Source of the DNA: Flectobacillus sp. | GTDB lineage: Bacteria > Bacteroidota > Bacteroidia > Cytophagales > Spirosomataceae | Length of the DNA: 6,215 nt | Reading direction: 5' to 3' | Assembly: GCA_029865665.1 (NCBI GenBank) | Contig: JARXAV010000018.1 | Coordinates: forward strand, 1 to 6,215 | Shown: positions 1 to 6,131 of the stretch, piece after piece | Layout of the letters: every line of letters starts with the position of its first letter | Position numbering within the stretch: the stretch's first letter is position 1 | Notes under the pieces: model-generated | Database searches by the model: none | The model's input: the letters and a program-made list of their open reading frames with translations, nothing else | Told to the model about the DNA's origin: nothing | Program-made: the position numbers and the translations under genes

Positions 1-882
1 TTCGGTAGTATTGCTCTGGTCTTTGGTGTTGTAGTTACGACTAAATGCCCAAAAATATAAACACGTTTGATTGGTAGATGGCGTAATGGTATTCAAGACA
101 AAGCCATTTACTCCCTGCGAACGGTCGCCCTCAGGAGCTCCCGTATCGGTAATGGCAACGCCTACATCAATCGTGACAGTACAAGGAGCTTGGAAATTGA
201 TAATTTGCCAGCGATCCACTTTGCCCTCGTGCTTTATCTTTTTGTTCAATTGACTTTTCCAGAAAGGAGGGGGATAAATGCCTTTCATCCAGCGTTCTAC
301 GGTGGCTGTTTTTTCGTCGTGATATACCTCAAAAGGAGCTTCAGGAACGTGTTCATCGCCAATACTTTCCGAATGCACAAAGGTTTCGTGTGTTAAATCC
401 ATCAGGTTATCAATCACCAAACGGTAGTTACATTTTACCTCAATCATTTTGCCATCTCCTGCCCAATCGGGGTCGTTGTTCCAGTGCATATCAGGGATGA
501 GGCTTGGGTCTGCCAAAGCAGGATTTCCCATCCAAACCCATAAATAGCGGTATTTCTGAATCACAGGGTACGCTCGAACACAAGCCGAAGGATTGATGGT
601 TTCCTGAGAAGGCATGTGCGTACAACGCCCGTTGCCATCGTATTCGAGTCCGTGATAGCCACAAATGACGGTATCGTTATGTAGTTTCCCTTTCGATAAA
701 GGCAATAGTCTATGCCAACAAGCATCTTCTAAAGCAACAGGAGTACCATCTTTTTTTCGATATAGTAAGATGGATTTGTTGCAAATCTTGCGAGATAAAA
801 GGCTGTTTTTAACTTCAAAATCCCATGCTGCGGCGTACCAAGCATTCATAGGAAATGACTCATTCATGGTAAATGATTGCAT
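1..882 (-). CDS. VanA-like Rieske non-heme iron oxygenase, alpha subunit (3' end cut by window)
   Basis: Reading the minus strand from the ATG at 882 gives 294 uninterrupted codons to the window edge. The N-terminal half is a Rieske [2Fe-2S] domain with cluster ligands C55-x-H57 and C74-x2-H77. The catalytic domain shows the mononuclear iron motif D158-x3-D162-x2-H165-x4-H170 (core DLTHETFVH). The overall pattern (FPMNAWYAAAWD start, CGYHGL, MPSQETINPSACVR, NLMDLTHETFVH, GVNGFVLNTITP) is that of the vanillate O-demethylase oxygenase group. Such enzymes take electrons from a separate reductase and demethylate or hydroxylate aromatic acids in the cytoplasm. The family is usually about 350 residues, so roughly 50-60 residues, including the third iron ligand, lie outside. 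Met6 and Met12 are alternative starts; no Shine-Dalgarno is visible. The substrate is not proven: relatives act on vanillate, toluenesulfonate and dicamba, so no gene symbol is given. Confidence 0.93.
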   Translation of the reverse strand, partial: MQSFTMNESFPMNAWYAAAWDFEVKNSLLSRKICNKSILLYRKKDGTPVALEDACWHRLLPLSKGKLHNDTVICGYHGLEYDGNGRCTHMPSQETINPSACVRAYPVIQKYRYLWVWMGNPALADPSLIPDMHWNNDPDWAGDGKMIEVKCNYRLVIDNLMDLTHETFVHSESIGDEHVPEAPFEVYHDEKTATVERWMKGIYPPPFWKSQLNKKIKHEGKVDRWQIINFQAPCTVTIDVGVAITDTGAPEGDRSQGVNGFVLNTITPSTNQTCLYFWAFSRNYNTKDQSNTTE

Positions 883-1208: not shown

Positions 1209-2279
1209 TCAATCAAATGGTTTTTGAAACTCTGTATTTTTTATTTTTAATCCCACCACGCTAGAATCAAGAGGAGTATTAATAAGCAACATTGTTTGAG
1301 TTCTGATATCTTTACTACACGATTCAATATATGCTTTTATAAGAAAATTACTTAGATTACATATATCATCAATTGGTAAAAAGTCAAGCATCTTTAACAG
1401 ATTTTTAAGTGGTTCTTTGTCATCTATATGAGCACATATTTTATTCCTTACATGTCGAATCATAACTTCTTTTTCTAAATTTCTTTCCTTATCATATCTA
1501 ATAATAACAGTATAGCCATTATGGTTAATTCTTTGTGCAATTTTATAGAAACTATCCGTTTGATGTTCTTGACTTTGCTCGTTTGTGAATATATTGTCTA
1601 AAAGATTGATGACATCAATAATTAATATTGACTTTACAAGTCTCTTTAAATCTATACCAAGATCATCACTTGGGTACATTTCTTTTAAATATAATATAGA
1701 GTCAATTATACTATTTATCTGTAAAATTCTTGTATTGAACTTATCATCAATATTTTTTTGAAACCGCCATATATAGTTAGATCGTGTAGGAGCAAGAGTA
1801 TCTATACTAACAACAAATCCATAATCAGAGTTAGGAATTATAGTACTGGATACAATCGAAAAATCACTGTATGCTGGTATGTCAATAGTGTTTAAAGCGT
1901 GTATAAGATTATAAATATCTTGTACTTCTGTGATATAGTAGTTGAGTGTAATGAGATCGATTTCGTTCCAATATTCATATACTTGAAATATATCCAAATC
2001 TTGTCTGTGTGCACCAAGCTTGTCTCTAATTATCTTATGATAGTTATCATATTCATGCTTAATAGCATTAAGTTTTTTGTGAATTGATTTTGTATTAAGG
2101 TCTCTTGAATTGAACGTATTTTTGATTTGAGCAGCAAAAATAAAGAAAGCGTCAAGGTATAGAAAAATACTTCTAGATAGTATTCTTTTTCTATAATCAT
2201 CAGTGTCTGCATTTGTGAACCATTTTGAAAGATTCAACATTCTGACGCAAAATAATAGTTTATCTATTTTATCTTTCAT
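1209..2279 (-). CDS. Uncharacterised protein with two HEPN-type R-x5-H motifs (putative double-HEPN RNase / Abi-like)
   Basis: I do not recognise a named family for this intact 356-residue protein. It has two near-identical motifs: R85-D-K-L-G-A-H91 and R278-N-K-I-C-A-H284. Both fit R-[polar]-x4-H, the catalytic signature of HEPN RNases seen in HEPN/MNT toxins, AbiU2-like proteins and Cas13. Each motif is flanked by sequence that looks helical, giving roughly an N-terminal all-alpha half (1-130), a possibly beta-rich linker (about 138-175) and a C-terminal all-alpha half (about 183-330). There is no signal peptide or clear membrane segment, so it is probably cytoplasmic. The coding DNA is much more AT-rich than the flanking genes, which suggests transfer. 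It is separated from the mannosidase operon by a terminator and has no visible antitoxin partner. An RNA-cleaving or defence role is inference; a non-catalytic HEPN-like RNA binder is the main alternative. The ATG at 2279 has no Shine-Dalgarno; Met14 is an alternative start. Confidence 0.85.
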   Translation of the reverse strand: MKDKIDKLLFCVRMLNLSKWFTNADTDDYRKRILSRSIFLYLDAFFIFAAQIKNTFNSRDLNTKSIHKKLNAIKHEYDNYHKIIRDKLGAHRQDLDIFQVYEYWNEIDLITLNYYITEVQDIYNLIHALNTIDIPAYSDFSIVSSTIIPNSDYGFVVSIDTLAPTRSNYIWRFQKNIDDKFNTRILQINSIIDSILYLKEMYPSDDLGIDLKRLVKSILIIDVINLLDNIFTNEQSQEHQTDSFYKIAQRINHNGYTVIIRYDKERNLEKEVMIRHVRNKICAHIDDKEPLKNLLKMLDFLPIDDICNLSNFLIKAYIESCSKDIRTQTMLLINTPLDSSVVGLKIKNTEFQKPFD

Positions 2280-2329: not shown

Positions 2330-2378
2330 AACAAAAGAAACAAACCCCTCTTCCATCCAAGCAGATAAAAGAGGGGTT
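2330..2378 (-). terminator. Intrinsic terminator of the GH92-GH125 operon
   Basis: A perfect 10-bp inverted repeat, AACCCCTCTT at 2343-2352 and AAGAGGGGTT at 2369-2378, encloses a 16-nt loop. Read on the minus strand the stem is followed by a T-rich tract (TTGTTTCTTTTGTT). It starts 15 nt past the GH125 stop codon. The plus-strand side has no T-run, so it acts in the minus direction and insulates the HEPN-like gene from the mannosidase transcript. Confidence 0.85.
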
Positions 2379-2392
2379 GATAGGCTGAAATG

Positions 2393-3820
2393 TTATGCCA
2401 ATAAATGCGGTTTGGTTTGGAATACTTCCCAGATAAATTCACCAAAAATGGTGTTTGCCCAAGCAAACCATTTACGAGTAAAATTGGTTGGGTCGTCTTT
2501 GTGGAACGACTCGTGCATAAGACCTGTTCCTCCGTGTGTTTTCTTTAAGGCTGCAATACAGTCTTTGATTTCTTGGTCATTGGAACTTGTTAAGCCTCTC
2601 ATGATGATACTCAAAGGCCAAATCATATCCATTCCTGCGTGTGGGCCTCCGATGCCTTCGGCTGCTTTTCCTTTGAAGAAGAACGGGTTACTGTTTGATA
2701 AAATTAGCTTGCGGGTATTTAGATAAATGGGATCCGTTTTCTTAACAGCATTCAAATAGGGTAATGACAAAAGGCTTGGTACATTGGCATCGTCCATTAA
2801 GTTATAACTGCCAAAACCATTTACTTCATACGCATATACTTTTCCAAATTTTGGGTGAGTTACTATGCCATGTTCTTGAATCGCCTTTTCTACTTCGGTA
2901 GCCAATGCCGATAATTCCGCAGCAAGGGCCTCGTCTTTGAACAACTGCTTAATCATGGTCGATGCTTGTTTTAAGCTTACCACCGCAAAGAAGTTAGACG
3001 GAATCAAGAAAGGAAACACCGTTGCATCGTCACTCGGACGGAACATCGAACAGATTAATCCCACGGGGTTGATTGGATAACCATAGCCACCCAAAGGTAC
3101 GCCATCTGTTGCCCAAGCAGTTGTTCGTTGGAAGGTATAAGAGCCTTTGTCTTTCTTGCGTTGTTGTTCCTTGAAAACCTTTAAGGTTGACTTAATCGTT
3201 TCTTTCCATTCGGCATCAAAAGGCGTGGTATCGTTGGTCAATTTCCAGTAATTGTAGGCCAAACGGATGGGGTAACAAAGGGAATCAATTTCCCATTTAC
3301 GTTCGTGAATACCCGCTTTCATGTCCGTAATATCGGTACTTTTCCATTCGCTTACTTTAGACGCATCTTTATAAAAAGCGTTGGCATAAGGGTCTAGTAA
3401 AATACACTTTTTCTGACGATTGATTACGCCTACTACTAATTGCTGTAATTTTTTGTCGTCTTTGATAACCGTTAAATAAGGCCATATCTGAGCCGTACTG
3501 TCTCGCAACCACATGGCATCAATGTCACCCGTTATGACGTAGGTATCGGGTTTGCCTTGTACCATTTCAAAATCGACTGTAGTGTCAAGCGTATTCGGGA
3601 AACAGTTTTCAAAAAGCCATGTTAACTCAGGGTCTTTTACCTGTACTTTGAATTTTGCAATGGCATTTTCTACGGCGATACTTGTGAAATTACGGTTTTG
3701 AACGGCAGGACGTTTGCTGTCGAACGTACTTGTCTGAGCTGTTACCCCGAAAGGTGTTTTAAGGAACATTCCAGCCGATAATAGGCCAGTGTTTTGAATG
3801 AATTTTCTACGTGATTGCAT
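2393..3820 (-). CDS. Tat-exported GH125 exo-alpha-mannosidase (likely alpha-1,6-specific)
   Basis: This 475-residue protein matches glycoside hydrolase family 125 (formerly DUF1237), metal-independent inverting enzymes that remove non-reducing-end alpha-1,6-mannose from N-glycans or mannan. Conserved blocks include [11 protein letters not shown] (98-108), FRPSDDA (260-266), [14 protein letters not shown] (391-404) and LMHESFH (434-440). D264 and E437 are 173 residues apart, the same spacing as the catalytic Asp220 and Glu393 that I recall for the Clostridium perfringens enzyme, so the acid and base appear intact. The N-terminus carries SRRKFIQ, a twin-arginine signal, then a hydrophobic stretch and likely cleavage near A28, so the enzyme should fold in the cytoplasm and be exported by Tat. 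The start codon lies one base past the GH92 stop codon, indicating translational coupling. Strict alpha-1,6 specificity is inferred from the family. Confidence 0.95.
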
Positions 3821-3821
3821 C

Positions 3822-6131
3822 CTATTTCTTGTCGGTTGAATATGAGTATGGATAAGCGTTTTGTGTTGAACCTCGTTGATAATTGGGCTTGCTTCCCATT
3901 GAGAAATTCAAGATTCCGCCTTTAGTTAAGTCGCTATGATTGAGGTAATTGAATGAATGAATCTTGTTGTTCCATTTCAATTCTTGTACATACAGATTGG
4001 TTTCGCTGCTCGCAGGAGCATTGATTTCTAAGGTTTTACCTGATTCTAATTGTACGCTTATTTTCTTGAATAAAGGCGTTCCTAGTACATATTGGTCGGT
4101 CGCTGGACAAACGGGATAGAAGCCTAACGCTGAGAAAATATACCATGCCGAAGTTTGTCCATTATCTTCGTCGCCACAATAGCCGTCTGGTGTTGGCTTG
4201 TATAATTTACGCATTACCTGACGAGTCCAATATTGTGTTTTCCACGGTTGTCCTGCATAATTATAGAGGTAAATCATGTGTTGAATCGGCTGATTTCCGT
4301 GGGCGTATTGTCCCATGTTCATGATTTGCATCTCTCTAATTTCGTGAATCACACCGCCATAATAGCTATCGTCAAAAAGGGGAGGAGTACTAAATACGGT
4401 ATCTAAGGTAGCGACAAAAGACTTTTCGCCTCCCATCAGTTTAACTAAACCTTGTACGTCGTGAAAAACGCTCCAACTATAATGTAAACTGTTCCCTTCG
4501 GTAAAAGCATCACCCCATTTTAACGGATTGAAAGGCGATTGAAAATTACCGTCTTTATTTTTACCACGCATCAATTTAGTTTGTGGGTCAAAGAGGTTTT
4601 TGTAGTTCATCATACGCTTTTCAAACAGAGCGATTTCAGAGGCAGGCTTCTTCAAAGCCTTCGCCAATTGATAGATACTAAAATCGTCGTAAGCGTATTC
4701 TAAGGTTCTGGCAGCATTCTCATTAATTCCCACATTATAAGGAACATATCCTAGTTCATTGTAGTATTTTACGCCAACACGTCCTGTACCTTCTGGCCCT
4801 TCGTTGTTTGCTCCTTTTATCAAGGCTTCATAGAGCTTTTCGATGTCATAACCTCGTTGTCCCTTGATATAAGCATCTGCCACTACGCTGGCAGAATTGT
4901 TGCCTACCATCACGTTACGATACCCTGGACTTGACCATTCGGGTAGAAAACCGCCCTCTTTATAATCGTTGATAAGTCCTTCTTGCATTTCTTTGTTAAT
5001 CGAAGGATACAAGAAATTTAAGAGTGGATACAAGGCTCTGAAGGTATCCCAAAAACCTGTGCCAGCATACAAATAACCTGCTTCTACTTTGCCATTGTAC
5101 GGACTGTAGTGGACAATATTTCCTTTTGCATCTTTTTCATAATGCTTTTGTGGGAAACAAACTGCTCGGTATAAACACGAATAGAACGTTTGTTGTTCTT
5201 CCGGACTACCGCCTTCTGCTTTAATTCTTCCTAAAATTGTATTCCAATTATTTTTAGAGGCTTCGGCTGTTTGGTCAAAGCTGTCTTTTCCAATTTCACT
5301 TTGAAGGTTGACTTCGGCTTGCTCCAAACTGATGAACGAAGAAGCTACTTTGGCAGTTACTTGTTCGCCTTTTTTAGTTTTAAAACCAATTACTGCTCCT
5401 GTATGATTGCCCGTTGCTTCAAGTTGTCCTTTGGTTAAGGTCTGGTCTAACCACGTGTAAGAAAGGGTGAATGCTTTGTCGAAAACCACCACAAAATAGT
5501 TTTTGAAATTGGCAGGAACGCCCCCACTATTACGGGTAGTATAGCCAACAATTTTATGTTGTGCTGGAATGATTTTGATGTAAGAACCTTTGTCAAAGGC
5601 ATCTACCACGACAAAAGAACTATCCGTTTGTGGGAAGGTAAAACGAAGCTGTGCCGCTCTTTCGGTGGTGGTTAATTCTGTTGTAACGTCGTGGTCTGCC
5701 AAGTAAACGCTGTAGTAATAAGGCTTTACAATTTCGGATTTATGCGAAAACCAACTTTGACGATCGTCTTCTTTATAGCGTAGTTTTTTGGTTACAGGCA
5801 TAATGGAAAATTGCCCGTAGTCGTTCATCCATGGGGATGGTTGATGGGTTTGTTTGAAGCCTCTAATTTTTTCGGCGGTGTAGGTATAAACCCAGCCGTC
5901 GCCCATTTTGCCTGTTTGAGGTGTCCAGAAGTTCATACCCCAAGGACGTGCAATGGCAGGGTAGGTATTGCCATTCGATAAGCTATGTACCGACTGCGTT
6001 CCCATCAGTGGATTCACCGATTCGACTGGACTAAATTTTGTTGTTTGGGAGAAGCTTGTAGGAGCTAGTAAGCAACAAATCACTGCAATCCATCCTGTTT
6101 TCAGATAGTTCATAAGGTTGTTTTGTTTCAT
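3822..6131 (-). CDS. Secreted GH92 calcium-dependent alpha-mannosidase (predicted alpha-1,2)
   Basis: This 769-residue protein is a full-length glycoside hydrolase family 92 enzyme: an N-terminal beta-sandwich (about 32-280) followed by an (alpha/alpha)6 barrel. Family blocks include VNPLMGT (39-45), [12 protein letters not shown] (359-370), TEGNS (544-548), [27 protein letters not shown] (starting 650) and GTPLF (684-688). Compared with residue numbers I recall for Bacteroides BT3990, the catalytic acid E533, specificity pair H584-E585 and base aspartates D642/D644 map at a constant offset of 12 onto E545, H596-E597 and D654/D656. The His-Glu pair is associated with alpha-1,2-mannosidase activity. 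A hydrophobic segment (about 13-27) with a probable cleavage after SFS (position 28) indicates Sec export to the periplasm; no proper lipobox is present. It leads the operon with the GH125 gene. Met7 is an alternative start. Other GH92 linkages (alpha-1,3, alpha-1,4, mannosyl phosphate) are not excluded. Confidence 0.96.

Follow-up and report, generated by a model that had tools for sequence, protein, structure and literature searches.

The 6,215-nucleotide stretch of Flectobacillus sp. DNA analysed here (contig JARXAV010000018.1; henceforth 'the window', meaning the whole stretch) contains a gene for a 356-amino-acid (aa) protein that we predict, with a probability of roughly 60%, to be a single-chain tandem-HEPN ribonuclease (RNase) effector of AbiU2 affinity, with a composite active site formed within the chain and a role in defence. 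The protein has two AbiU2-like motif regions with conserved motifs, its relatives span two bacterial phyla, and defence-type genes lie near two of them. The gene and its parts are as follows:

1209..2279, minus strand: tandem HEPN (AbiU2-like) gene, a 356-aa open reading frame (ORF) with an ATG start and 27.8% guanine–cytosine (GC) content
2007..2027, minus strand: motif 1, R85-DKLGA-H91, with R and H kept in all 40 aligned family members
1428..1448, minus strand: motif 2, R278-NKICA-H284, with both R and H retained by 23 of the 25 members that reach it
1893..2279, minus strand: N-terminal (N) HEPN-like unit, residues 1–129 (AlphaFold2; PF18734 at residues 68–130)
1314..1745, minus strand: C-terminal (C) HEPN-like unit, residues 179–322 (AlphaFold2; second PF18734 stretch; hhalign)
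1773..1802, minus strand: linker motif D-x-L-A-x-T-R-x-x-T, residues 160–169, found in most relatives (alignment A6)

In HEPN proteins, the R and H of the motif R-x4-6-H, in which a polar residue (N, D, or H) follows R, form a metal-independent RNase site, and a second conserved acidic residue typically lies within an E-x3-[KR] motif (PMC3710099). The window protein contains only two R-x4-6-H strings, motifs 1 and 2, each with such a polar residue after R. At least two R-x4-6-H strings also occurred in 36% of 100,000 residue shuffles of the protein, and at least two R-x5-H strings in 6%, whereas at least two copies of R-[DNH]-K-x-x-A-H occurred in 0 of 100,000; chance is therefore rejected for the extended core, yet not for the bare R-x4-6-H pair, which is uninformative.

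A stronger test of the motifs is conservation. In the 40 rows of alignment A4, which includes the window protein and leaves out P0039, R85 and H91 are always present, with one extra residue between them in P0023. At position 278, 25 rows have R, 1 has G, and 14 have a gap; at position 284, 23 rows have H, 1 has T, and 16 have a gap. The exceptions at motif 2 are P0017 (neither R nor H) and P0022 (R, no H), both of which diverge there from the family sequence in a frameshift-like manner; P0026, with an aligned R and then nothing, was classed as not reaching the motif. Invariant residues of the 13-row alignment A3 include W104, N105, D160, L162, D299, and C321. An earlier note on this DNA, made from the letters alone, had picked out both motifs and named R/H conservation in homologues as a check; the motifs are confirmed on the extended core and on this conservation alike.

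The AbiU2 affinity of the protein is supported by profile comparisons. Pfam returned one family, HEPN_AbiU2 (PF18734), over two stretches (E = 1.9e-5), a borderline match whose score of 24.7 bits is below the cut-off of 26.8. When scanned apart, the two halves match the same stretch of the profile (positions 110–172, E 0.0055, and 119–167, E 0.03), and simple arithmetic that disregards gaps, of which the second match contains one, puts both arginines at about profile position 127. Among 11 close relatives (P0002–P0011 and the protein of locus L001, from an uncultured Brumimicrobium), PF18734 is over its cut-off in six (P0002, P0004, P0006, P0007, P0008, and L001) and under it in P0003, P0005, P0009, P0010, and P0011; in seven of the 11, it matches in two stretches. 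Comparison with AbiU2 profiles, which the earlier note had suggested, supports an affinity to the family through both halves and the close relatives, with the window protein itself below the cut-off; the same note's description of an 'orphan' of no named family does not stand, given the relatives and the borderline Pfam match.

We also searched 247 genomes from the class to which Brumimicrobium belongs (taken to be Bacteroidia, in the phylum Bacteroidota) for PF18734 (E ≤ 0.001) and found matches in 9 of them (6 over the cut-off; ten places). Seven AbiU2-type proteins of 169–231 aa (L007, L009, L010, L011, and L015 over the cut-off, L013 and L014 under it) each have one R-x4-A-H motif of AbiU2 form; L006 and L008 (internal stop) and L012 (no such motif) were excluded from this single-domain set. 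In hhalign, with E-values that refer to single comparisons, the profile of these seven aligned with the C unit at E 4e-5 (probability 70%) and with the N unit at E 0.002 (13%), in both cases with the motif in register. The N and C units aligned with each other at E 0.003–0.006 (6–11%) over 10–15 columns or, with fewer sequences, at E 0.025 (2%) over 48 columns. Because these alignments are weak, the two units are judged to be far diverged at the profile level, and profile similarity says less for the membership of the N unit than do its motif, its Pfam stretch, and its model. A recent internal duplication is ruled out, as the halves align weakly though with the motif in register.

More distant relatives (P0012–P0016, P0018, and the protein of locus L002) had zero Pfam matches over a cut-off. 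For the window protein, NCBIfam gave no match, the best PADLOC match had E 0.066, PHROGs gave one match at E 0.12, and the sole match of a Protein Data Bank sequence search was PA1076 (2k4v; E 0.26). The remaining Pfam matches, such as DUF5064 and Fib_alpha, were under their cut-offs and were disregarded; of these, DUF5064 (PF16703) was seen again, still sub-threshold, close to the N unit (residues ~12–119) in all eight of the relatives P0002–P0009, at E 0.001–0.15.

The AlphaFold2 model is all-helical and consists of two four-helix units (predicted local distance difference test [pLDDT] 83; predicted template modelling [pTM] score 0.84; five models of similar confidence). The main helices are at residues 2–22, 28–58, 64–90, and 109–129 in the N unit (with a shorter one at 97–106) and at residues 179–200, 209–230, 268–282, and 303–322 in the C unit (with shorter ones at 244–250, 256–264, and 291–300). 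In each modelled unit, the third of the main helices ends in the motif, as in the canonical HEPN helix order. The linker of ~50 residues has pLDDT 50–59 in blocks 151–180; within it, D160 and L162 are kept in 31 of the 32 rows of alignment A6, and A163, T165, and R166 in 30 each, whereas residue 169 is Y in the window protein and T in most relatives. Conservation of this linker motif almost equals that of the HEPN motifs, in two phyla.

We propose that the linker with its D-x-L-A-x-T-R tethers two diverged HEPN domains, both bearing R-[D/N/H]-x-x-x-[A/G]-H, and that these would pack on each other within the chain in the manner of the HEPN pair in Cas13, together creating a single composite RNase site that is metal-independent. 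Release of the RNase would follow a trigger, for example phage infection; the enzyme would then cleave cellular or viral RNA and bring about translation arrest or abortive infection. Endoribonuclease activity is predicted from the HEPN family. The two motifs per chain and the confident two-unit model point to intramolecular pairing, which would be the most economical role for a pair of conserved motifs in one chain. Of the compact, self-contained HEPN nuclease imagined in the earlier note, the two HEPN-type motif regions, the one compact chain, and the conserved R/H pairs stand, and the nuclease itself is a prediction. The neighbours of relatives, AT-rich content, and sparse distribution suggest the trigger and probably a defence effector role.

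Three protein searches yielded the window protein (P0001) and 38 others. P0002–P0011 are 302–383 aa long and share 26–50% identity with the window protein (alignment A2). A further 28 relatives of 170–609 aa (P0012–P0039), among them P0014 of Ralstonia solanacearum and P0016 of Paraburkholderia madseniana, were reached once the L001 protein and an Agrobacterium protein had joined the alignment; the latter, encoded on an Agrobacterium pusense plasmid (L002), is the longest relative at 756 aa, and its ~400 residues past the second HEPN unit, without a Pfam match, are a possible sensor or scaffold. Many distant relatives end early or diverge in a frameshift-like manner (for example P0017, P0022, P0036, P0038, and P0039), through decay or assembly error; the end of P0016 matches IS3 transposase regions, and P0026 and P0029 carry the unrelated Pfam domains PF01135 and PF14748. 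In overlapping genome samples around genome G001, the A2 search matched 2 of 395 genomes at class level, 1 of 399 at order level, and 1 of 395 at phylum level, the match common to all three being G001 itself; the other class-level match (G104; E 2e-4) lies around motif 2 only, in an ORF (L005) with one motif, and was not counted as a relative. Viral or phage origin finds no support, with zero relatives in IMG/VR (three queries) or in phage records (tblastn and blastn) at the sensitivities used.

Two loci of relatives, L001 and L002, were readable and include the following genes:

L001 7149-9071, plus strand: gene for an Abi_C (PF14355) protein, ending 9 bases upstream of the tandem-HEPN gene on the same strand
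L002 5983-8253, plus strand: gene for the 756-aa Agrobacterium HEPN relative
L002 1978-3885, minus strand: GajB-like gene, apparently split, with a 512-aa ORF whose match to its best GajB profile covers only position 129 onward

The Abi_C and tandem-HEPN genes of L001 form a possible two-gene operon. An OLD-like ATPase with TOPRIM is encoded ~2.6 kb upstream of the HEPN gene, from which two further ORFs separate it, and a Fic protein that matches PADLOC PDC-S04 (E 2e-92) is encoded 0.3 kb downstream. In L002, an unannotated record, the HEPN gene adjoins a GajA-like gene (E 3.5e-213) and a GajB-like one (E 4e-159), both on the opposite strand; upstream of the 512-aa GajB-like ORF lies another ORF, of 107 aa, whose sequence looks P-loop-like by eye. 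Defence-type genes are thus found by profile match at two of two readable loci, a small number but a suggestive one.

The window itself contains these further features:

1-882, minus strand: Rieske/VanA_C oxygenase gene, truncated by the window edge (ORF and Pfam)
2343..2378, minus strand: intrinsic-terminator-like hairpin between the GH125 and HEPN genes, with a 16-pair stem and a T-rich tail
2393-3820, minus strand: GH125 alpha-mannosidase gene (ORF and Pfam)
3822-6131, minus strand: GH92 glycosidase gene (ORF and Pfam)

Within 850-2500, three terminator-like sites were observed against a shuffle mean of 0.4, and promoter-like sites gave no signal (10 vs 11.8 in shuffles). The hairpin suggests that the HEPN gene is a separate transcription unit. 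The GC content of the HEPN gene falls to 21.0% at third positions, while the other three genes have overall values of 41.1–43.8%; because of this low GC content relative to its neighbours and the hairpin between it and the GH125 gene, the HEPN gene looks like an acquired single-gene unit. Downstream of it, 890-1208 has no ORF of at least 60 aa and no Rfam hit, with a GC content of ~22% over 883-1208. GH125 homologues of at most 72% identity occur in 38 of 247 sampled genomes of the phylum of Brumimicrobium and in 127 of 201 genomes of the best match's family, which makes a host of that phylum (Bacteroidota) probable. Nine regions of 12–14 kb around such homologues were compared to seek flanks without the HEPN gene: GH125 was present in all nine (65–72% identity) and GH92 in four, in one of them at only 30% identity, and the Rieske and HEPN genes were in none (tblastn E ≤ 1e-5), a pattern that identifies no empty site.

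Two findings lend no support to a defence RNase of this fold. None of the window neighbours (Rieske oxygenase, GH125, and GH92) is a defence gene, and HEPN structures make up 8 of 50 fold-comparison rows, with scores no higher than those of unrelated helical bundles. The N half resembles HepT (the best four HepT chains have root-mean-square deviations of 3.0–3.3 over 107–109 residues), likewise not above the helical-bundle background; absence of a family (e.g. Cas13) from the VIA-align rows does not exclude that family. The structural check suggested in the earlier note gave an all-helical model of two four-helix units, with HEPN fold matches no better than background.

The alternative that survives best, although we consider it unlikely, is that the protein is not a self-contained effector but the HEPN toxin of a toxin–antitoxin or two-gene Abi pair, its partner having been lost or being encoded elsewhere. 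The closely spaced Abi_C gene of L001 favours it, as do reports from the 2013 HEPN survey that AbiU2 shares operons with a Sel1-repeat protein and that another HEPN family shares one with AbiU2 (PMC3710099). The window gene, however, follows a terminator-like hairpin with no small partner gene seen in the window, and the upstream neighbour in L002 is GajA-like and on the opposite strand. This explanation is compatible with either mode of pairing and overlaps both, whereas the direct alternative to a single-chain site is a homodimer in which sites form between chains (N/N' plus C/C', or N/C', with two composite sites per dimer). HEPN proteins function in pairs, usually across chains as homodimers, with Cas13 pairing them inside one chain (PMC12165695), and the low-confidence linker would allow such exchange, but the pTM score and the five similar models suggest one compact arrangement, and 23 family members retain both motifs together; we rate interchain sites as less likely still than a separate partner. 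It is improbable that both domains bind RNA or serve housekeeping or regulation without cutting, in the way proposed for inactive HEPN domains: presumed inactive HEPN families do exist (PMC3710099), but these are motif-less, whereas R and H persist in both halves across two phyla. Coincidental motifs in an unrelated helical protein, a reading helped by the frequent bare pairs in shuffles and the background-level fold scores, are already disfavoured and highly improbable in view of the extended core, the PF18734 matches of both halves, and the R/H conservation.

If the single-chain tandem-HEPN RNase is real, the compact, apparently separate 356-aa fusion would be a second, simpler case of a whole HEPN site per chain, would offer a small system for asking how a single-chain HEPN nuclease stays off, and would give a testable function to the uncharacterised proteins of the family, which span two bacterial phyla. 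More tentatively, and with the odds against it, the family may be a non-CRISPR HEPN RNase lineage that arose by joining of two AbiU2-like domains, independently of the AbiD/F-like fusion proposed for Cas13, with the linker D-x-L-A-x-T-R as a built-in switch over active-site assembly and with a C-terminal sensor region added in longer forms (Agrobacterium and Ralstonia).

Among known systems, the likeness to Cas13 and Cas13an, which also have two HEPN motifs within a single chain, is an analogy. An origin by fusion of two HEPN genes with defence roles has been proposed for Cas13; Cas13an proteins are 429–577 aa long with rearranged HEPN domains, and ten of the thirteen lie beside CRISPR arrays and three do not (PMC12165695). 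The window, L001, and L002, by comparison, have no CRISPR-like array or array-like direct repeats and zero Rfam hits, over a window that spans only 6.2 kb. A 2024 study described intramolecular HEPN dimers in twelve uncharacterised AlphaFold clusters, two of which became Cas13an (PMC12165695); these clusters would have the same kind of architecture as the window protein if the pairing is right, and the tandem-HEPN family may be among them. Swt1 likewise has a HEPN dyad in one protein but is eukaryotic, is fused to a PIN nuclease, and is listed as inactive (PMC3710099). AbiV (9bj6), an antiphage HEPN RNase, differs in being single-domain and typically lacks the standard H in its motif (PMC3710099).

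HepT is a single-domain toxin paired with MNT; it aligns with the N half of the window protein, but the chains compared are ~130–150 aa, and no adjacent MNT nucleotidyltransferase gene is present among the window neighbours. Closest is HEPN_AbiU2, which shares the R-x5-H spacing, an R-[D/T/H]-x-x-x-A-H core (RDKIIAH, RTKYIAH, RDKMYAH, and similar), and a profile matched by both halves. The seven single-domain AbiU2 proteins have one A-H motif each (some with other R-x4-6-H strings), whereas the window protein has two diverged motif copies and a conserved linker at 356 aa, and its more distant relatives that were scanned no longer match PF18734. A tandem AbiU2-type protein was not found in the open-licence PMC literature among the matches listed; HEPN, AbiU2, and single-chain HEPN pairs are already known.
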